This document shows positions 2,905 to 26,073 of a stretch of 33,900 nucleotides of DNA, piece by piece (position 1 is the first letter of the stretch; every line of letters starts with the position of its first letter). The position numbers were made by a program, and so were the translations under genes. The stretch comes from a virus. The notes under the pieces are model-generated. The model did not search any database. It worked only from the letters and a program-made list of their open reading frames with translations, and had not been told where the DNA came from. The stretch spans positions 1 through 33,900 of IMG/VR virus record IMGVR_UViG_3300009182_000010; one strand, written 5' to 3'.

Positions 2905-4235
2905 TAGATATAGAGCTTGATTACAAGCCTAGAGATGTATTCCTAGATTTTCACGAAAGAACACAACGTTGGGCAGTCATAGTCGCACACAGACGCTGCG
3001 GCAAGACTGTTAGCTGCATTAATGAATTAATCTACAAAGCACTAATAGAGGGCAAAGAAGATGGTCGCTACGCTTATGTTGCACCATATTACAGCCAAGC
3101 TAAAAATATTGCCTGGGACTACTTGTTAAAGTTTAGTAAGCCTGTAATGGCTAAAGCTAATCAATCTGAACTATGGGTGGAACTTATAAATGGAAGCCGT
3201 ATACGACTGTTTGGTGCTGACAATGCTGATAGTTTGCGTGGTTTGTACCTTGATGGAATTGTCTTAGATGAGTATGCAGATATGCGCCCTCGTATTTGGG
3301 GCGAGATTATTCGGCCTTTGCTGGCAGATAGACTCGGTTGGGCAGTTTTCATTGGAACGCCCAAAGGTCATAATGCCTTCTGGGACATTTACACCCATGC
3401 CACCAAGTCTAATGATTGGTATGCCAAAACCCTAAGAGCTAGTCAAACAGGGTTATTGCCTAAGTCAGAGCTTGAAGATGCCGCTAAGTCTATGACGCAA
3501 GACCAATACCTACAAGAGTTTGAGTGCGACTTTGAGTCAGCCATTCTAGGTGCTTATTACGGCAAAGAAATGCGTCAGCTTACTGACCAAGGCCGCATAA
3601 GAGAAATAGAGTTTGACCCTATGTTTCCTGTGCATACAGCATGGGACTTGGGCTATTCTGATGACACCGCTATATGGTGGTTTCAAGTCGTACATGGCGA
3701 GATTCGTATGCTTGACTACCACTCAAGTAATGGTCAACCAGTAGCTTTTTATGCTGGCATTATTCAGTCAAGAGAGAAAGAAAGAGGCTATGTATATGGC
3801 ACACATTACTTACCTCACGATGCAAGAGCTAAAACATTAGCCTCAAATAAGTCCATAATTGAGCAACTTTCAGACAAAATTGCGTTAAAATCTTTAAAAA
3901 TTGTGCCAAGTTTGTCACTACAAGATGGAATACAAGCAACACGACTAGCATTAACTAGAGCTTGGTTTGACCATAAGTGTGAAGATGGCATTGAATGTTT
4001 AAGGCAGTACCAGCGTGAATATGATGAGGACAAAAAAGTCTTTAGGGATAAACCTAGACATGATTGGACTTCTCATGGTGCTGACGCATTTAGGATGCTT
4101 AGTATTGCCTGGAAAGAAGAAGCAAAGTTGCCCCATAAAGATGACTCGATTAAAGGGCTGTTTGTAGGTAAAACCGATGTAAGTTTGAATGATATGTGGA
4201 AACAACAGCCACAGATTTCAAAAGGAAGAATTTAA
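2892..4235 (+). CDS. terL: Terminase large subunit (ATPase-nuclease)
   Basis: A 447-residue packaging motor. The ATPase domain shows Walker A A-H-R-R-C-G-K-T (32-39), Walker B G-I-V-L-D-E (122-127) and the coupling motif F-I-G-T-P-K-G. The RNase H-like nuclease domain has D-L-G-Y-S-D-D-T (about 250) and a late H-G-A-D-A-F-R. Length is normal. The first Met is residue 86, after Walker A, so the start must be non-ATG. TTG at 2892 is the only ATG/GTG/TTG between the in-frame stop at 2862 and Walker A. It lies inside the end of terS, suggesting coupled translation, with only GGTGGTG as a possible ribosome site. The stop overlaps the portal ATG (TAATG). Confidence 0.95.
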   Translation: MEEVIDIELDYKPRDVFLDFHERTQRWAVIVAHRRCGKTVSCINELIYKALIEGKEDGRYAYVAPYYSQAKNIAWDYLLKFSKPVMAKANQSELWVELINGSRIRLFGADNADSLRGLYLDGIVLDEYADMRPRIWGEIIRPLLADRLGWAVFIGTPKGHNAFWDIYTHATKSNDWYAKTLRASQTGLLPKSELEDAAKSMTQDQYLQEFECDFESAILGAYYGKEMRQLTDQGRIREIEFDPMFPVHTAWDLGYSDDTAIWWFQVVHGEIRMLDYHSSNGQPVAFYAGIIQSREKERGYVYGTHYLPHDARAKTLASNKSIIEQLSDKIALKSLKIVPSLSLQDGIQATRLALTRAWFDHKCEDGIECLRQYQREYDEDKKVFRDKPRHDWTSHGADAFRMLSIAWKEEAKLPHKDDSIKGLFVGKTDVSLNDMWKQQPQISKGRI

Positions 4236-6529
4236 TGGCAAACGATAAAGCGACAGTCAATCACACATACGAAGATTGGTATAAATGTATTATGGGCTAT
4301 GAGCGCTCATATAAGCGCTGGGAAGCTAGGGTTGACCGCATTGTTAAGAAATACAAAGATGACAGCCGCTACGATAGAAACCCTAATGCTCGTTTTAATA
4401 TTCTTTGGTCTAATGTACAAACCATTCAGCCAGCCATCTTTGCAAGACTGCCTCGCCCAGACGTTAGCCGCCGATTTCGTGATAATGACCCAATAGGCAG
4501 AGTAGCGTCAATGATGCTTGAAAGAGCATTAGAGTTTGAAATTGAGCATTATGGCGACTATAAGTCTGCAATGAATAACACAGTCCTAGACCGCTTATTA
4601 GGTGGTCGTGGCGTTAGCTGGGTGCGCTATGAGCCACATATTGTTGGCGAAGAAACCAACACAGAGGATATGCCTGAAGATGGCTTAGAAGTTACAGAAG
4701 ATAGTGACGAAGCTGAAACAGCAGAAGCAGTTGAGAATGAAAACCCAGAGCGCATTGAATACGAGTGCTGCCCAGTCGACTATGTCCATTGGAAAGACTT
4801 TGGACATACTATTGCTAGAACCTGGGAAGAAGTCACAGCAGTATGGCGTAAAGTTTATATGAGCCGCCCAGCATTATGTGAGCGCTTTGGCGAAGAATTA
4901 GGTTATAAGATTCCATTAGACACTAAGCCTGATGACTTAAAACAATCCTACAAATCTGATGATGGTGTATATGAGGCGCTGATATATGAAATATGGGACA
5001 AAGAAACAGGCAAAGTATTGTGGATTTCTAAGTCCCTCGGAAAGATATTGGATGAACGTGATGACCCTTTGGGTCTTGAGAACTTCTGGCCTTGCCCTAA
5101 GCCTCTCTATTCAACGCTCACAACTGACAGCCTTGAGCCGATTCCTGACTATGTTATCTACCAAGACCAAGCAAGAGAACTAGACGCTTTATGCGACAGA
5201 ATTGATGGCCTTATTAACGCTATTAAAGTGCGTGGCGTTTACGATGCCTCGGCTTCTGAACTACAACGTCTATTCTCCGAAGGCGAAAATAACACCATGA
5301 TTCCAGTACATAACTGGATGGCTTTTGCTGAAAAACAAGGCATGAAGGGTGCTATTGACTTAGTTGATTTAGCACCTTTTGCAAGCGCTTTGATGACTTG
5401 CTATCAAGCGATGGAGCAAGTTAAAGGTCAAATATATGAATTGATGGGCATTGCTGATATTCAGCGTGGACAGACTGACCCTAATGAAACCCTTGGCGCA
5501 CAAATTATTAAATCTAATAACGCTGCTGGTCGCTTAAAAACTATGCAACACGCAGTAGTAGACTTTGCTACTAGTTTACTAAGTATTAAAGCGCAGATTA
5601 TTTGCAATCATTTTACTGATGACACATTGGTTAAGATTTCTGGCGCAATGCAATTAAGTCCGCAAGACCAGCAACTTATTCCGCAGGCGATTGAATTATT
5701 AAGAAACGAAGCGTCAAAGAACTTCCGTATTGAAGTTACTTCTGACTCAATGATTTACCAAGATGAACAGCAAGAAAAAGCAGATAGGATGCAATTTCTG
5801 CAAGCTATGGGTGGATTTTTACAGCAAACCATGCCAATTATTCAAGCAGCACCTGAATTAGCGCCTATGGCTATTGAAATGATGAAATTTGGCGTAACAG
5901 CATTTAAAGCTGGCAAACAATTAGAAGGCATTATTGACCAAACTGCTGATGAAATTCGCATGAAAGCACAACAAATGCAAGGTCAACCAAAACCACCGCC
6001 ACCAGAAATAATGAAAATACAAATGCAAGCGCAGATGGAACAAGCTAAGATGCAAGCCCAATCCCAAGCTAAACAAGCTGATATGCAAATGACTATGCAA
6101 CTTGAGCAAGCTAAAATGCAAATGCAAATGGAGCTTGAGAAGGCTAAACAAGAATACCAGGCGCAAGAAAACCAACTGAAATTTCAGCTAGAAGAACAGC
6201 GTAATCGCATGGATAGAGAGATGGAAATAAAAGTAGCTCAAATGAAGATGATGACTGAGCGCAATACTCAGGTATTGTTAGCTCATATTAACAATGGCGC
6301 AAAGATTGAAACTGCTCGTATTTCTGCTGGCACAGATGATGGTGAAACAGCTTATATGCATGAAGAAGATATGGCGCAAGTAATGCAAAACCCAATGGAA
6401 ACAGTAGCTTCTGCAATTAATAACAATAGCAATCAAATGGCACAAATGATTAGCGAATTAATGAACAAGTTAAATAAACCTAAAACAGTAGTGCGTGGGC
6501 CTGATGGTAAGATAACTGGAGTCCAATAA
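4235..6529 (+). CDS. P22-type portal protein
   Basis: A 764-residue portal, the dodecameric ring at the head vertex through which DNA enters and leaves. The N-terminal half has the P22-like portal pattern: W, basic helices, D-R-N-P-N-A-R-F-N-I-L-W, then a long helical stem with Q-D-Q-A-R-E-L-D-A-L. The C-terminal 200 residues are Gln/Met/Lys-rich with repeated M-Q-x-Q-M-E-Q-A-K, an extended coiled coil resembling the barrel of P22 gp1. I place the start at ATG 4235, with AAGGA eight bases upstream and overlap with the terL stop (TAATG). An in-frame GTG at 4196 would add 13 residues but lacks that site. The size fits P22-like portals. Confidence 0.92.
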   Translation: MANDKATVNHTYEDWYKCIMGYERSYKRWEARVDRIVKKYKDDSRYDRNPNARFNILWSNVQTIQPAIFARLPRPDVSRRFRDNDPIGRVASMMLERALEFEIEHYGDYKSAMNNTVLDRLLGGRGVSWVRYEPHIVGEETNTEDMPEDGLEVTEDSDEAETAEAVENENPERIEYECCPVDYVHWKDFGHTIARTWEEVTAVWRKVYMSRPALCERFGEELGYKIPLDTKPDDLKQSYKSDDGVYEALIYEIWDKETGKVLWISKSLGKILDERDDPLGLENFWPCPKPLYSTLTTDSLEPIPDYVIYQDQARELDALCDRIDGLINAIKVRGVYDASASELQRLFSEGENNTMIPVHNWMAFAEKQGMKGAIDLVDLAPFASALMTCYQAMEQVKGQIYELMGIADIQRGQTDPNETLGAQIIKSNNAAGRLKTMQHAVVDFATSLLSIKAQIICNHFTDDTLVKISGAMQLSPQDQQLIPQAIELLRNEASKNFRIEVTSDSMIYQDEQQEKADRMQFLQAMGGFLQQTMPIIQAAPELAPMAIEMMKFGVTAFKAGKQLEGIIDQTADEIRMKAQQMQGQPKPPPPEIMKIQMQAQMEQAKMQAQSQAKQADMQMTMQLEQAKMQMQMELEKAKQEYQAQENQLKFQLEEQRNRMDREMEIKVAQMKMMTERNTQVLLAHINNGAKIETARISAGTDDGETAYMHEEDMAQVMQNPMETVASAINNNSNQMAQMISELMNKLNKPKTVVRGPDGKITGVQ

Positions 6530-8331
6530 TGGCTATAACAGTCAAGCATAAGTTTGTAAGTGCCATTCCTGACGCTGGCGATACAACTGTTGTCCAGCCC
6601 TCTAATTGGAACGATGACCACCAGCTAACGGGAACAGTACCTATTGCCAATGGTGGTACAGGCGCTTCTGACGCTCCTACTGCACTTACAAATTTAGGAG
6701 CTTACCCTGCGAGCAACCCTAGTGGTTATGGTACAGGCACAGTTACTAGCGTTGCCGCTACAGTACCTAGTTTTTTAAGCGTAACAGGCAGTCCTATTAC
6801 TACAAGCGGTACATTGGCCTTAACTTATAGTGGCACAGCCCTACCAGTAGCTAATGGCGGTACAGGCGTTACAAGTAGTAGTGGCGCAAATAGTGTAGTT
6901 TTGCGTGATGCTAACGGAAATATAACCACTAACTGTTTATTTGAAGGCTTTAGTAGCCAAGCAGCAAGCGGTACAACAATTACATTAACTGCTTCCTCAG
7001 CTCAAAATTTATTAATTACTGGGTCTGGCGGTCAAACAATTAAGTTGCCTAATGCGACCACTTTGCCCAATGGTGCGTTATTTACTTTTAATAATAACCA
7101 ATCTTCTGGTGCAATTACTGTAGTTAATAACTCTAGTACAACTATAGCTACAATTAATGCAGGCGGTTATGTAACTGTTGTTTTGCTTGATAACTCAATA
7201 GCAGCAGGTTCATGGGATAGACATGACTCAACCCCTTCAAATGTGTCTTGGTCTACCAATACTTTAGACTTTCCTGGTTCTATTACCTCAGCAACTTGGA
7301 ATGGTACTGCTGTTGCAATTAATCGAGGTGGCACAGGGCAATCTACTGCAAGTGCAGCATTTAATGCTTTAAGCCCTTTAACTACTGCTGGCGATACTTT
7401 ATATGGCGGTACAAGTGGTGCTGGCACTAGATTAGCGATTGGCACAGCAGGGCAAGTATTAACAGTAAATTCTGGCGCAACTGCTCCACAATGGTCTACA
7501 CCAACTACAGGAACAGTAACTTCTGTAAGCGGTACTGGTAGCGTCAATGGCATTACTTTAACTGGCACAGTTACTTCTTCAGGCTCATTAACTCTTGGCG
7601 GCACATTAGGTTCTATTGCTAATAGCCAGCTTACTAACAGCGCAATTACTATTAACGGCACAAGCACAAGTCTTGGTGGTTCAATTAGCGTAGGAACTGT
7701 TACAAGCGTAGCTGCACTGACTTTAGGAACAACTGGTACTGACCTATCATCTTCTGTAGCTACAGGCACTACAACCCCTGTAATCACGCTTAATGTGCCA
7801 ACAGCTTCTGCTTCTAATCGTGGTGCTTTAAGTGCCGCAGATTGGACTACATTTAATAACAAGGGTTCAGGCACAGTAACTTCAATTACTGCTGGTACAG
7901 GTCTTTCTGGTGGCACTATTACAGGGTCAGGGACTATTGCTATTGATTCAACAGTTACTACGCTTACAGGCACACAAACCCTTACAAACAAAACACTAAC
8001 AAACCCAACCATTACGAACTACACAGAAACGCTTTATTCGCCTTCTGCTGGTAGTACATTTACTGTTGCATTAACCGATGGTACGGTTCAAAAACTTACT
8101 ACTAATGCCAATACAACAGTTACATTACCTAGTTCTGTAAGTGGCAAATCTTTTATTATTATTATTGCTTATGGTGGTTCTCATTCAATTACATGGGCTG
8201 GTGGCTCAACTATAAAATGGGCTGGTGGTTTTGCGCCAACAGCAACCGCAGTAAATGGAAAATTTGATATATTTACTTTTTTTCAGGATGGTACAAACAC
8301 TTACGCATCTGTATTAGGACAAAACTATTAA
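6529..8331 (+). CDS. Repeat-rich tail fibre protein
   Basis: A 600-residue Gly/Thr/Ser/Ala-rich fibre. The N-terminus (T-V-K-H-K-F-V-S-A, then Q-P-S-N-W-N-D-D-H) is a recurrent head end of phage tail-fibre proteins. Repeated units follow: N-G-G-T-G or R-G-G-T-G at about residues 41, 110 and 267, and G-T-V-T-S at several places (about 70, 326, 387 and 449). This gives a beta-rich, presumably trimeric shaft. A near-terminal L-T-N-K-T-L-T-N-P-T-I and a compact C-terminal domain with I-T-W-A-G-G-S may form the tip. It starts at TAATG with GGAG upstream. It probably binds host surface sugar or protein. The position right after the portal is unusual. Confidence 0.85.
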   Translation: MAITVKHKFVSAIPDAGDTTVVQPSNWNDDHQLTGTVPIANGGTGASDAPTALTNLGAYPASNPSGYGTGTVTSVAATVPSFLSVTGSPITTSGTLALTYSGTALPVANGGTGVTSSSGANSVVLRDANGNITTNCLFEGFSSQAASGTTITLTASSAQNLLITGSGGQTIKLPNATTLPNGALFTFNNNQSSGAITVVNNSSTTIATINAGGYVTVVLLDNSIAAGSWDRHDSTPSNVSWSTNTLDFPGSITSATWNGTAVAINRGGTGQSTASAAFNALSPLTTAGDTLYGGTSGAGTRLAIGTAGQVLTVNSGATAPQWSTPTTGTVTSVSGTGSVNGITLTGTVTSSGSLTLGGTLGSIANSQLTNSAITINGTSTSLGGSISVGTVTSVAALTLGTTGTDLSSSVATGTTTPVITLNVPTASASNRGALSAADWTTFNNKGSGTVTSITAGTGLSGGTITGSGTIAIDSTVTTLTGTQTLTNKTLTNPTITNYTETLYSPSAGSTFTVALTDGTVQKLTTNANTTVTLPSSVSGKSFIIIIAYGGSHSITWAGGSTIKWAGGFAPTATAVNGKFDIFTFFQDGTNTYASVLGQNY

Positions 8332-10343
8332 TGTTCAGTTACGCAACTAAATCTTCTAGTGCTCAATTAGACCCAAATTTTAAACAAGTAAGCACATTGC
8401 TTCATGGTGATGGTACTAATGGTACACAAAACAATACATTTTTAGATTCTTCTACAAATAACTATACGATTACTAGAACTGGAGCGCCTACACAAGGAAC
8501 ATTTACACCTTTTAGTCAGGCGGCAGGATATTGGAGTAATTATTTCCCAACTTCATCGTATGCAGTTGTTGCCACCAATGCTGCTTTTACTTATGGAACT
8601 GGTGATTTTACAATGGAGTGTTGGGTTTATTTAACTACAACAGGCACAATTCAATACATTATTGACCAAAGAAATAGCGGAACAGCCAATGCTGTAATTC
8701 CTGCAATTTATGTTTCAGCCTCTGATGTTCTTACTTATTTTGTATCTAATGCAGCGCAAATTACAGGCACAACAGCTTTAGTTGTAGGCACTTGGTATCA
8801 TGTTGCCGTTTCAAAATCTAGCGGTAATACAAAAATGTTTTTAAACGGAATTCAAGAAGGCTCTACTTATTCTGATTCAAATAGTTATGTAGCCAGTCGT
8901 GTATGTCTTAACGTCAATGGTGCAACTGGTGTTAATATTTTAGTTGGATATACATCTAATGTTCGATTGGTAAAAGGTACTGCCGTTTACACCGACAACT
9001 TCACACCTAGCACCATACCTTTAACAGCCATAACGAATACCAGTTTACTTACTTGTCAATCTAATCGTTTTATAGATAATTCAAGTAATAATTTTGCTTT
9101 AACACTTACAGGAACGCCACAGGTTCAACCTTGGAGTCCTTTTGCTCCCACATCTGCATATAACACAAGTGTCATTGGTGGTAGCGGATATTTTTCAGGG
9201 TCTGCAGGAAATTATTTAAGTGCTACATACAATACATCGTCTTTTGATTGGTGGACAACAGATTACACAATAGAAGGATGGGTATACCCAACAACATTGG
9301 CAGGATGGGGATATATAACTGCTTCAGATACGCAATCAACGCTTATTGGAAACGCAAACGCAACTTCAGTTATAAACTATTGGTCTTTTGGCCCATATAC
9401 AGATGGAACAGTTAAATTTAAATATTACAATGGTCTTTCTGTAACAGTTACATCTACTAATACTGTAAAAAGTAACCAATGGAATCATATTGCAATGGTT
9501 AAAAATTCCTCAGGAATTACATTATATGTAAATGGAATAAAAGATACAAATTCTGCAGTTTCTGGAACACCGCAATCTTCAACAGGAACACCTTTAATTA
9601 TAGGTCAAATCAACACTACAACAATTAATGGATACATTTCAAGCATTAGAATTGTAAAAGGTACTGCTCTTTACACAGCCAGTTTTACTCCACCAACAGC
9701 ACCCCTTACAGCCATTACAAATACTACATTACTTCTCAATGGAACTAATTCTGGCATTGTTGATAATGCTATTAAAAGCGATATAGTTACAGTAGGCTCA
9801 GCACAAATTAATACTTCTGTTGTGAAATATGGCACAGGTTCAATTAGTTTTAATGGAACAACAAGTTATTTAAACTTTCCAAATAACACTTATTATGCTT
9901 TTGGAACTTCAAATTTTACGATTGAAGCATGGGTTTATCCCAATTCTGTAACAGCTTTGCAATCTTTGATAGACACAAGGTCTACTGCGACAGCTACGAC
10001 AGGAATATTAATTTCAATTACTGCACTTGGGTTTATTTCTGTAACAGTTAATAACGCAATTTTGTTTACTTCTTCTACTGGAATTACAATAAGTGCATGG
10101 ACTCATGTGGCTGTAGTAAAAAATGGCTCAACTATTACACTTTATTTAAATGGTACAAAACCCCTTACTGGGTCAGGAACATCATCAACTAGTTTAACTG
10201 ACCAGTTTTTAAGACTTGGTGCATCTGCTGGAACAGCTGCAAACTTTTACAATGGTTATTTAGATGAAGTGCGTATTACTAACGGTATAGCACGATACAC
10301 AGCCAACTTTACTCCGCCAACTGCGCCATTTCCCAATCAATAA
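8331..10343 (+). CDS. Triple LamG/concanavalin-like lectin fibre protein
   Basis: A 670-residue protein made of three LamG (concanavalin A-like) jelly-roll domains at about residues 90-228, 311-460 and 528-668. Each begins with an F-T-M/I-E-x-W-V-Y strand, carries W-x-H-V/I-A and an L-N/V-N-G strand, and ends in R-I/L-x-x-G-x-A-x-Y-T-x-x-F-T-P. Such domains bind glycans in many proteins, so it is likely an adhesin at the fibre tip or baseplate. The copies differ enough to suggest old duplication. The start shares the A of the preceding stop (TAATG) and has only a weak ribosome site. No signal peptide or membrane segment is present, as expected for a virion protein. Confidence 0.88.
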   Translation: MFSYATKSSSAQLDPNFKQVSTLLHGDGTNGTQNNTFLDSSTNNYTITRTGAPTQGTFTPFSQAAGYWSNYFPTSSYAVVATNAAFTYGTGDFTMECWVYLTTTGTIQYIIDQRNSGTANAVIPAIYVSASDVLTYFVSNAAQITGTTALVVGTWYHVAVSKSSGNTKMFLNGIQEGSTYSDSNSYVASRVCLNVNGATGVNILVGYTSNVRLVKGTAVYTDNFTPSTIPLTAITNTSLLTCQSNRFIDNSSNNFALTLTGTPQVQPWSPFAPTSAYNTSVIGGSGYFSGSAGNYLSATYNTSSFDWWTTDYTIEGWVYPTTLAGWGYITASDTQSTLIGNANATSVINYWSFGPYTDGTVKFKYYNGLSVTVTSTNTVKSNQWNHIAMVKNSSGITLYVNGIKDTNSAVSGTPQSSTGTPLIIGQINTTTINGYISSIRIVKGTALYTASFTPPTAPLTAITNTTLLLNGTNSGIVDNAIKSDIVTVGSAQINTSVVKYGTGSISFNGTTSYLNFPNNTYYAFGTSNFTIEAWVYPNSVTALQSLIDTRSTATATTGILISITALGFISVTVNNAILFTSSTGITISAWTHVAVVKNGSTITLYLNGTKPLTGSGTSSTSLTDQFLRLGASAGTAANFYNGYLDEVRITNGIARYTANFTPPTAPFPNQ

Positions 10344-23551: not shown

Positions 23552-24701
23552 AAACGGAAGCGGTACATATAACCTACCTGCTGGTAATCCAGTAGTTACA
23601 GGCACAACTATAACAACCACATGGGCTAATACAACCCTTAATGACATTGGTTCTGCATTAACTGGTAGCGTAGCCTCTGATGGTCAAACACCTATGAGTG
23701 GTAGCCTTAATATGGCTAATAACAAAGTTATTTCTGTTACTGACCCTACTAATGCTCAAGATGCTGCTACTAAAGCCTATGTAGATTTAGTTGCTGGTGG
23801 CACTAAAGATGGGTCATTTGTAAACCTAGCTTATACGGGTACGCTTACTGGCGGTACAGGAATAGTTAATTTAGGCTCTGGTCAAGTTTATAAAGATGCT
23901 AGTGGTAATGTAGGTATTGGTACTAGTAGTCCTACGGCTCGTCTTACTGTTGCAGATTCTGCTGCACCAAAATTAAATTTTAGTGTTGGTGCATCTACAG
24001 AAAGAGCATTTATTAGTTATACAGAATCAACAGCTTTGATGAGAATTGATAGTGATGCTAGTATTGTTTTTGCCTCTAACAATACAGAAGCTGCTAGGAT
24101 TGATACTAGTGGTAATTTGTTAGTTGGTATTACAACTAGTGTTGATGGAAAAGTTCAAATAAAAACAACTACGGCAAATTGGGGAGTTGCTATTGATTCA
24201 ACCAATGCCACTACGCAATATTTTGAAAGATTTACATATAATGGCACTCAAATTGGATATATTACTGGCAATAATACTAATGTAACTTATTCAACATCTT
24301 CTGATTATCGTCTTAAAGAAAATATAGCACCAATGACAGGTGCTTTAGATACAGTAGCTAAACTTAAACCTGTTACATACAAGTGGAAATTTGATGGTTC
24401 TAATGGACAAGGATTTATTGCCCATGAATTACAAGAAGTTGTTCCTGATTGCGTTACTGGAGAAAAAGATGCTACTCGTATTGAAAAGTACGAAATTTCA
24501 CCTGCTATTCCAGCCGAAGTTGATGAAGATGGCAAAGTAATTAAAGAAGCTGTTGAAGCCGTTATGAGTGAGCGTGAAGTACCAGCTTATCAAGGTATTG
24601 ACACTTCATTCTTAGTAGCTACTTTAACTGCTGCTATTCAAGAACAACAAGCAATGATTGAAGAACTTAAAACTAAAGTATTAGCTTTGGAGGCAAAATG
24701 A
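23544..24701 (+). CDS. Tail fibre/spike with S74 intramolecular chaperone
   Basis: A 385-residue fibre. The N-terminal 110 residues resemble phage fibre connector regions (N-G-S-G-T-Y-N-L-P-A-G-N-P-V, then P-T-N-A-Q-D-A-A-T-K-A-Y-V-D). A short shaft follows with G-N-V-G-I-G-T-S-S-P. From about residue 250 comes S-S-D-Y-R-L-K-E-N-I, the start of a peptidase S74 domain. Here Ser and the Lys of L-K-E-N-I are the usual autocleavage dyad, and the domain ends in a coiled coil (Q-A-M-I-E-E-L-K-T-K-V-L-A-L). Such domains trimerise the fibre and then cut themselves off. AAGGAG precedes the ATG. It is the last structural gene before lysis. Confidence 0.9.
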   Translation: MSRNGSGTYNLPAGNPVVTGTTITTTWANTTLNDIGSALTGSVASDGQTPMSGSLNMANNKVISVTDPTNAQDAATKAYVDLVAGGTKDGSFVNLAYTGTLTGGTGIVNLGSGQVYKDASGNVGIGTSSPTARLTVADSAAPKLNFSVGASTERAFISYTESTALMRIDSDASIVFASNNTEAARIDTSGNLLVGITTSVDGKVQIKTTTANWGVAIDSTNATTQYFERFTYNGTQIGYITGNNTNVTYSTSSDYRLKENIAPMTGALDTVAKLKPVTYKWKFDGSNGQGFIAHELQEVVPDCVTGEKDATRIEKYEISPAIPAEVDEDGKVIKEAVEAVMSEREVPAYQGIDTSFLVATLTAAIQEQQAMIEELKTKVLALEAK

Positions 24702-24868
24702 ACTTTACATTTACATGGATATTAGACAAGTTTGGTTTTGCGCCAAAAGCAAATATTGATTTGCAAGAATGGACTTTTCCTGTAAAAAAGGAAGTTGCCA
24801 AAAAAACAACAAAAGTAGCCAAAAAAGCAACTGTACCTAAAGCCACAACCCGTAAAAAGAAAACATAA
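24698..24868 (+). CDS. Small Lys-rich protein, 56 aa
   Basis: A 56-residue protein beginning at the ATGA that ends the S74 fibre gene. The first half has hydrophobic and aromatic residues (F-T-F-T-W-I-L-D-K-F-G-F). The second half is Lys/Ala/Thr-rich with repeated V-A-K-K-x-T units, resembling histone-like tails. GGAGG-like AGG lies a few bases upstream. It ends one base before the holin start. Possibly DNA-binding, with no recognised family. Confidence 0.6.
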   Translation: MNFTFTWILDKFGFAPKANIDLQEWTFPVKKEVAKKTTKVAKKATVPKATTRKKKT

Positions 24869-24869
24869 T

Positions 24870-25178
24870 ATGTTAGACAAAGACCCAACATCTTACCCAC
24901 TTTTAACTTACGCTTGGGTTTTAGGACTTTCCGCTTTAGGTGGTTTTGTTAGCTTTATGAATAAACTCAAAGAAGGTAAAACTAGAGCATTTAACATTGC
25001 CGAGTTTTTAGGCGAAATTGCTACTTCTGCATTTACTGGTGTTATTACTTTTTGGTTATGCGAAAATGCACAATTTTCCCCATTAATTACCGCAGCATTA
25101 GTTGGTGTATCAGGTCACATGGGTAGTCGTGCTATTAGCTTATTTGAAGAATTTTTAAGTAAAAAGTTTGCTCAATGA
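24870..25178 (+). CDS. Holin (LydA-like, Phage_holin_3 type)
   Basis: A 102-residue protein with three likely membrane segments: about 10-30 (L-L-T-Y-A-W-V-L-G-L-S-A), 44-66 (I-A-E-F-L-G-E-I-A-T-S-A) and 72-92 (L-I-T-A-A-L-V-G-V-S-G-H). The G-H-M-G-S-R motif (about 84-89) is characteristic of LydA-like holins. Holins form lesions in the inner membrane that start lysis. It is the first gene of a standard lysis order and its stop overlaps the Rz start (ATGA). Confidence 0.86.
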   Translation: MLDKDPTSYPLLTYAWVLGLSALGGFVSFMNKLKEGKTRAFNIAEFLGEIATSAFTGVITFWLCENAQFSPLITAALVGVSGHMGSRAISLFEEFLSKKFAQ

Positions 25179-25570
25179 TTGATTACTGGAAAATTGGAAT
25201 TGCTGCTTTACTTTTACTTGGGGCTTTTGCTACTGGTTGGGGTTTACGCAACCGTGATTTTAACGACTATAAACAAGAAGTCAGTAATGCTGCAAAAGCA
25301 CAAGAAGCTCATGTTGAATCCATTAAAAAGCAACAAGTATTAGTCAATAAAGGAATTGAAGATGAATACAATGCGAAACTTGCTTTATTGCGCCAGTATT
25401 ATGCTAACGGGGTGCGCCAGCCCAATACCAGCAAGTTGCCCACCATTTCCAATGCCGCCACAAGTCTTGATGACTTCACCACCAACGGTTTACTTATTAA
25501 ATGTGCCGAAACAACCCAGCAATTAATTAGTTTGCAAGCATGGTTAAATGAGCAAATGGGCATTAAATGA
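25175..25570 (+). CDS. Rz-like inner-membrane spanin
   Basis: A 131-residue protein with one N-terminal membrane segment (about 6-24, I-G-I-A-A-L-L-L-L-G-A-F) and a periplasmic helical region (D-Y-K-Q-E-V-S-N-A-A-K and beyond). This is the topology of Rz i-spanins, which join the outer-membrane Rz1 to fuse inner and outer membranes at the end of lysis. The call is strengthened by a +1-frame lipoprotein gene nested inside it. It starts at ATGA after the holin and ends overlapping the endolysin ATG. Confidence 0.85.
   Translation: MIDYWKIGIAALLLLGAFATGWGLRNRDFNDYKQEVSNAAKAQEAHVESIKKQQVLVNKGIEDEYNAKLALLRQYYANGVRQPNTSKLPTISNAATSLDDFTTNGLLIKCAETTQQLISLQAWLNEQMGIK
25362..25526 (+). CDS. Rz1-like outer-membrane spanin nested in Rz
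   Basis: A 54-residue lipoprotein read in the +1 frame wholly inside the Rz gene. M-N-T-M-R-N is followed by a hydrophobic stretch L-L-Y-C-A-S-I-M and the lipobox L-T-G-C, with Cys18 as the lipidated residue and Ala-Ser after it. The 37-residue mature part is Pro-rich (P-I-P-A-S-C-P-P-F-P-M-P-P), as in lambda Rz1. AAGGA sits seven bases before ATG 25362; ATG 25371 is an alternative. An embedded, +1-shifted, Pro-rich lipoprotein is the lambda-type Rz/Rz1 arrangement. It implies a host with an outer membrane. Confidence 0.9.
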   Translation: MNTMRNLLYCASIMLTGCASPIPASCPPFPMPPQVLMTSPPTVYLLNVPKQPSN

Positions 25571-26073
25571 GTTTTAAAGAGTGTTTAGACCTTGTATTAA
25601 AGTCTGAAGGTGGTTGGGTAAACAACCCTAATGACCCTGGCGGAGAAACGAATTTAGGCGTTACCAAGCGTGTTTGGGAAGAATATGTAGGTCATCCTGT
25701 GACTACATTAAAAAACCTTACGCCAGAGCTTGTAGCGCCAATGTACGAACAAAAATATTGGAGGCCTTGTTATGCAGGAGTATTGCCTAGGGGACTCGAC
25801 TATCTTGTGTTTTCAATGGCAGTTAACGCAGGCCCAGGCAGGTCAGTTAAACTGCTTCAACAGTCTATTGGATGCCTACCTGACGGAGTTATTGGCCCAA
25901 AAACAAGAGAGCTTATTTCCAACAGTAATATTGCAACTTTTATCGCAAAATTCTCAGAAACTAGGCGAGAGTATTACCATTCATTAAAAACATTTCCTAT
26001 ATTTGGTAAGGGCTGGCTTTCAAGGGTTGACCACGAAGAAACACAAGCCCTGCAAATGGCTAAAAACGAGTAG
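25567..26073 (+). CDS. Endolysin, GH108-type N-acetylmuramidase
   Basis: A 168-residue peptidoglycan hydrolase. The N-terminal motif S-E-G-G-W-V-N-N-P-N-D-P-G-G-E-T-N-L-G-V-T (13-33) is diagnostic of GH108 muramidases. Glu14 is the expected catalytic acid, attacking the bond between N-acetylmuramic acid and N-acetylglucosamine. The C-terminal half carries the peptidoglycan-binding-like helices L-L-Q-Q-S-I-G then D-G-V-I-G-P-K-T. No signal peptide was found, so export depends on the holin. It starts at ATGA and its 3' end overlaps the convergent gene by 14 bases, with no terminator between them. Confidence 0.94.
   Translation: MSFKECLDLVLKSEGGWVNNPNDPGGETNLGVTKRVWEEYVGHPVTTLKNLTPELVAPMYEQKYWRPCYAGVLPRGLDYLVFSMAVNAGPGRSVKLLQQSIGCLPDGVIGPKTRELISNSNIATFIAKFSETRREYYHSLKTFPIFGKGWLSRVDHEETQALQMAKNE

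Follow-up and report, generated by a model that had tools for sequence, protein, structure and literature searches.

A pair of genes in the window (the whole stretch of DNA analysed here, 33,900 nucleotides of an uncultured tailed phage) almost certainly encodes a two-component spanin of the lambda type, in which the gene of the o-spanin lipoprotein Rz1 is embedded in that of the i-spanin Rz. The basis obtained in this analysis comprises the two reading frames, the selection acting on the second of them, the lipobox, the membrane helix, the conserved cysteines and the neighbouring genes; lipidation, dimerisation, complex formation and membrane fusion are taken from the lambda system.

The gene pair and its lysis cassette

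The i-spanin gene Rz (25175..25570, + strand) starts with ATG and encodes 131 aa; its assignment comes from the open reading frame, hydropathy, an AlphaFold2 model and the PHROG matches of its relatives. A hydropathy peak places an N-terminal transmembrane helix at about residues 7-23, and the model, of low confidence (mean pLDDT 61), consists of a helix (4-77), a linker (78-99) and a C-terminal helix (100-127) containing the sole cysteine of the protein, C110. Exactly one periplasmic cysteine was found in each of the 79 Rz sequences counted. The o-spanin gene Rz1 (25362..25526, + strand), assigned from its open reading frame, conservation, synonymous constraint and hhalign comparison to lambda Rz1, has its ATG at 25362, 187 nt past the Rz start (25175), and is therefore in the +1 frame. 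As its stop codon ends at 25526, 44 nt before the end of the Rz stop codon, Rz1 lies wholly within Rz, spanning 0.47-0.89 of its length. The 54-aa product is MNTMRNLLYCASIMLTGCASPIPASCPPFPMPPQVLMTSPPTVYLLNVPKQPSN. A Shine-Dalgarno site, AAGGA (25350..25354, + strand), is located within Rz 7 nt before this ATG, and its GGA codon is kept in relatives. The longer version of the ORF listing, starting at TTG 25356, was rejected, since a start only 1 nt from the Shine-Dalgarno site is unlikely. Residues 1-17 form a signal peptide with a hydrophobic stretch at 7-17 (hydropathy), followed by the lipid cysteine C18 of an L-T-G-C lipobox (15-18), signal peptidase II cleavage before C18 having been assessed by motif only. 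The mature part comprises 37 residues, 11 of them proline, with P33, P40 and P41 invariant in A2, and carries a second cysteine (C26) eight residues past the lipid cysteine. The initial annotation had described this 54-codon frame wholly inside Rz, with the same coordinates, its own AAGGA site, an L-T-G-C lipobox and a Pro-rich mature part, and proved right in all of them.

Rz/Rz1 is flanked by a LydA-type holin (holin superfamily III, 102 aa) upstream (24870..25178, + strand; phrog_785, E 2.6e-28; PF16083 Phage_holin_3_3, E 3.3e-23) and by a glycoside hydrolase 108 (GH108) endolysin of 168 aa downstream (25567..26073, + strand; PF05838, E 8.8e-23; phrog_315, E 9e-42), which also has a weak PG_binding_3 match. 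A 56-aa Lys/Ala/Thr-rich ORF without PHROG or Pfam match lies between a tail-fibre-like gene and the holin (24698-24868). An endolysin common to all relatives of the pair was rejected, as GH108-like ORFs were detected by a simple motif in only 38 of 76 loci. In two loci (L048, 2759-4201; L062, 2741-3992) the spanin pair adjoins a GH19-like endolysin, not GH108, and the small ORFs upstream of it have no Pfam match; there, the spanin module has been retained and its neighbours exchanged.

A host with an outer membrane, proposed from the lipoprotein in the initial annotation, stands as a fair inference; the host itself was not found, a search of bacterial genomes with the Rz profile having returned no relative. 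Elsewhere in the window, the portal protein (4196-6529) has named relatives (26-38% identity) in phages of six genera, namely Bradyrhizobium, Myxococcus, Rhizobium, Stenotrophomonas, Microcystis and Ruegeria, all of them outer-membrane bearing. The PHROG families matched by a 670-aa ORF (8331-10343) are many, of baseplate-wedge and virion structural types; the matches fall mostly towards its C-terminus and in three stretches apart from one another, which suggests that it carries a repeated domain.

Retention of the embedded frame and selection on it

A protein search of viral contigs recovered 80 loci with 48-100% Rz identity; 78 sequences (the window and 77 loci) were scored, after exclusion of two truncated contigs and of the identical L001. 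In 77 of the 78 the +1 frame is complete (51-58 aa) and contains both the lipid cysteine and the second cysteine; it starts with ATG in 75 cases and with GTG in two, and a simple motif scan detected a Shine-Dalgarno-like motif upstream of Rz1 in all but one sequence. The lipobox reads L[TMQ][GA]C in 75 of these 77 frames and QLAC in the other two, and the cysteine corresponding to C26 is kept in 77/77. Stop codons or cysteine loss in the +1 frame beside an intact Rz, regarded beforehand as grounds for refutation, were limited to L017, in which Rz is intact (3001-3399) and a single in-frame TGA interrupts Rz1 midway through its mature part, after ...PPASLM. The sequence beyond this TGA continues to match Rz1, and the codon may be either a real loss or an error. 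More distantly (30-33% Rz identity), two GenBank genomes from Manatee Spring, MW202520 and MW202796, retain the +1 frames ...IIMLTGCSQIPVAVTCPPFPSPPNVLMSAPPTQDLL... and ...FILAGCSTVPVASSCPKFPSPPEELMKAPPTQDLL.... Rz1 is unannotated in both of them, and Rz also in one, which agrees with the initial view that such genes are overlooked.

Could such a frame be open by chance, the composition of Rz disfavouring +1 stops and Rz being an unrelated membrane protein? This is extremely improbable, although openness itself is not rare. When Rz was recoded synonymously, following the codon usage of the window itself (20,000 trials), a +1 stretch of at least 60 codons remained open in 4.3% of the randomisations, so that openness alone is weak evidence. 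In addition, a separate +1 open stretch (Rz nt 4-166) is found in many relatives, probably due to composition; it was not taken as a gene, because L025 has several stops there and because the Rz codons past the membrane helix show no drop in synonymous change. On the other hand, a start, a lipobox and a Pro-rich tail together, the strict definition of Rz1, arose in the +1 frame in none of the 20,000 randomisations. Among non-redundant relatives (n=50, DNA identity <93%) this definition is satisfied by 47, against an expectation of 0.000, and in the +2 frame of the same 50 by none; the three exceptions are L017 and the two sequences with a QLAC lipobox. The persistence of the frame in all but one of the scored sequences, and in the two remote genomes, is also contrary to chance.

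A further test is that of synonymous sites. In the +1 overlap, each third position of Rz doubles as a second position of Rz1, and the first positions of Rz are the wobble positions of Rz1. In the non-redundant relatives, Rz third positions diverge by 0.51 ahead of the overlap; the value falls to 0.34 over the signal part of Rz1 and to 0.30 over its mature part, and is 0.52 past the overlap. At unchanged Rz residues, the share of pairs with different codons is 0.44, 0.24, 0.21 and 0.41 in these four segments. All of these values are to be taken as effect sizes, since the sequence pairs are related and not independent. Synonymous codon change in Rz is thus halved within the overlap, where its third positions are conserved, and the first positions are most variable in the mature-Rz1 part (0.42). 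This constraint is confined to the Rz1 overlap. Rz-silent substitutions are under-represented there, which selection on the second frame would predict. Moreover, where the Shine-Dalgarno site overlies a Gly codon of Rz, that codon is GGA in 35 of 43 cases, versus 56 of 354 for the other Gly codons of Rz (Fisher p 4e-18, not corrected for relatedness and therefore also an effect size, not an exact probability). The synonymous constraint already refutes a chance open frame, which the randomisations and the synonymous-site tests together rule out.

Relationship to known spanins

If the Rz1 frame is translated, its product could still be a lipoprotein with another role, such as superinfection exclusion of the Cor type, instead of a spanin subunit. 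One of 16 Rz1 relatives does match a Cor superinfection exclusion profile weakly (E 0.042), and the spanin reading has its own counterpoints: the window proteins alone reach no Pfam cut-off and give weak PHROG E-values (Rz, 0.026; Rz1, 0.063), Rz resembles its lambda counterpart weakly (10% probability), and L017 carries its TGA in Rz1 beside an intact Rz. Nevertheless, profiles of Rz-like spanin PHROG families match 9-11 of the same 16 Rz1 relatives, and the best such family matches 7 of 25 Rz relatives (best E 2e-4). Furthermore, Rz1 is embedded in an i-spanin-like gene inside a holin-endolysin cassette, and its profile aligns to lambda Rz1 over the lipobox, Cys29 and the Pro-rich PPxxxMxxPP segment (hhalign, one pair compared: 85.9%, E 5e-6), the alignment to known Rz1 proteins that had been suggested as a check. 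A role other than that of a spanin subunit is therefore very unlikely. A unimolecular spanin (u-spanin) was also discarded, as the lipobox and the membrane helix lie on two proteins from two frames.

The spanin reading is further supported by the architecture, which matches that of lambda (NC_001416; Rz 45966-46427, Rz1 46186-46368) and that of the published survey. In both lambda and the window, Rz1 is fully embedded in the +1 frame and ends shortly before the Rz stop, the lipobox ends in G-C, a single further cysteine lies 8-9 residues past the lipid cysteine, the mature Rz1 is Pro-rich with PPxxxMxxPP, and the i-spanin combines an N-terminal membrane helix with a helix-linker-helix periplasmic domain (here in a low-confidence model). 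In lambda, mutation-sensitive parts of one spanin protein overlie tolerant parts of the other (PMC5295617); similarly, the DNA of the Rz linker in the window also encodes Rz1 residues ~16-37, that is, the lipobox and the first half of the Pro-rich part. Among the 528 two-component spanins surveyed, about 70% of the embedded o-spanins start at ~0.4-0.5 and end at ~0.9-1 of the i-spanin length (PMC6139136), an arrangement like that found here. Differences from lambda exist too. The cassette order is holin-spanin-endolysin instead of holin-endolysin-spanin, with a GH108 endolysin and a LydA-type holin; Rz has one periplasmic cysteine, in its last helix, whereas lambda Rz has C99 and C152; an uninterrupted pentaproline is absent; and the Rz sequences are hardly alignable. 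T7 gp18.5/18.7 and P2 LysB/LysC are likewise two-component spanins with a +1 o-spanin, embedded in T7 but overlapped in P2 (PMC6139136); some Rz1 relatives match PF17531 and PF23793 weakly, although this similarity is sub-threshold only.

Proposed function and significance

By analogy with lambda, Rz would be anchored in the inner membrane through its N-terminal helix, and Rz1 would be lipidated and sent to the outer membrane. The holin and the GH108 endolysin would first open the inner membrane and the cell wall, and the Rz-Rz1 complex, probably made of homodimers joined through candidate disulfides at Rz C110 and Rz1 C26, would then collapse, fuse both membranes and complete lysis. Lambda requires a homotypic disulfide at either Rz C152 or Rz1 C29 (PMC5295617). 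Given one periplasmic cysteine in Rz and the retained second cysteine of Rz1, the same disulfide safeguard is likely in this family, with Rz C110 and Rz1 C26 as candidates.

In sequence the pair constitutes a new family, but the kind of spanin is known and the design ordinary. It is a tentative and rather doubtful idea that the family forms a spanin lineage of its own among uncultured phages, with an i-spanin non-homologous to lambda Rz and an embedded o-spanin that either shares ancestry with lambda Rz1 or has converged on its motif. The understanding of spanins is unchanged by this family. Its value is in confirming the lysis annotation, in supporting a host with an outer membrane, in offering a clean case of two frames selected simultaneously and in extending the known embedded spanins by a large family of uncultured phages that had gone unannotated.
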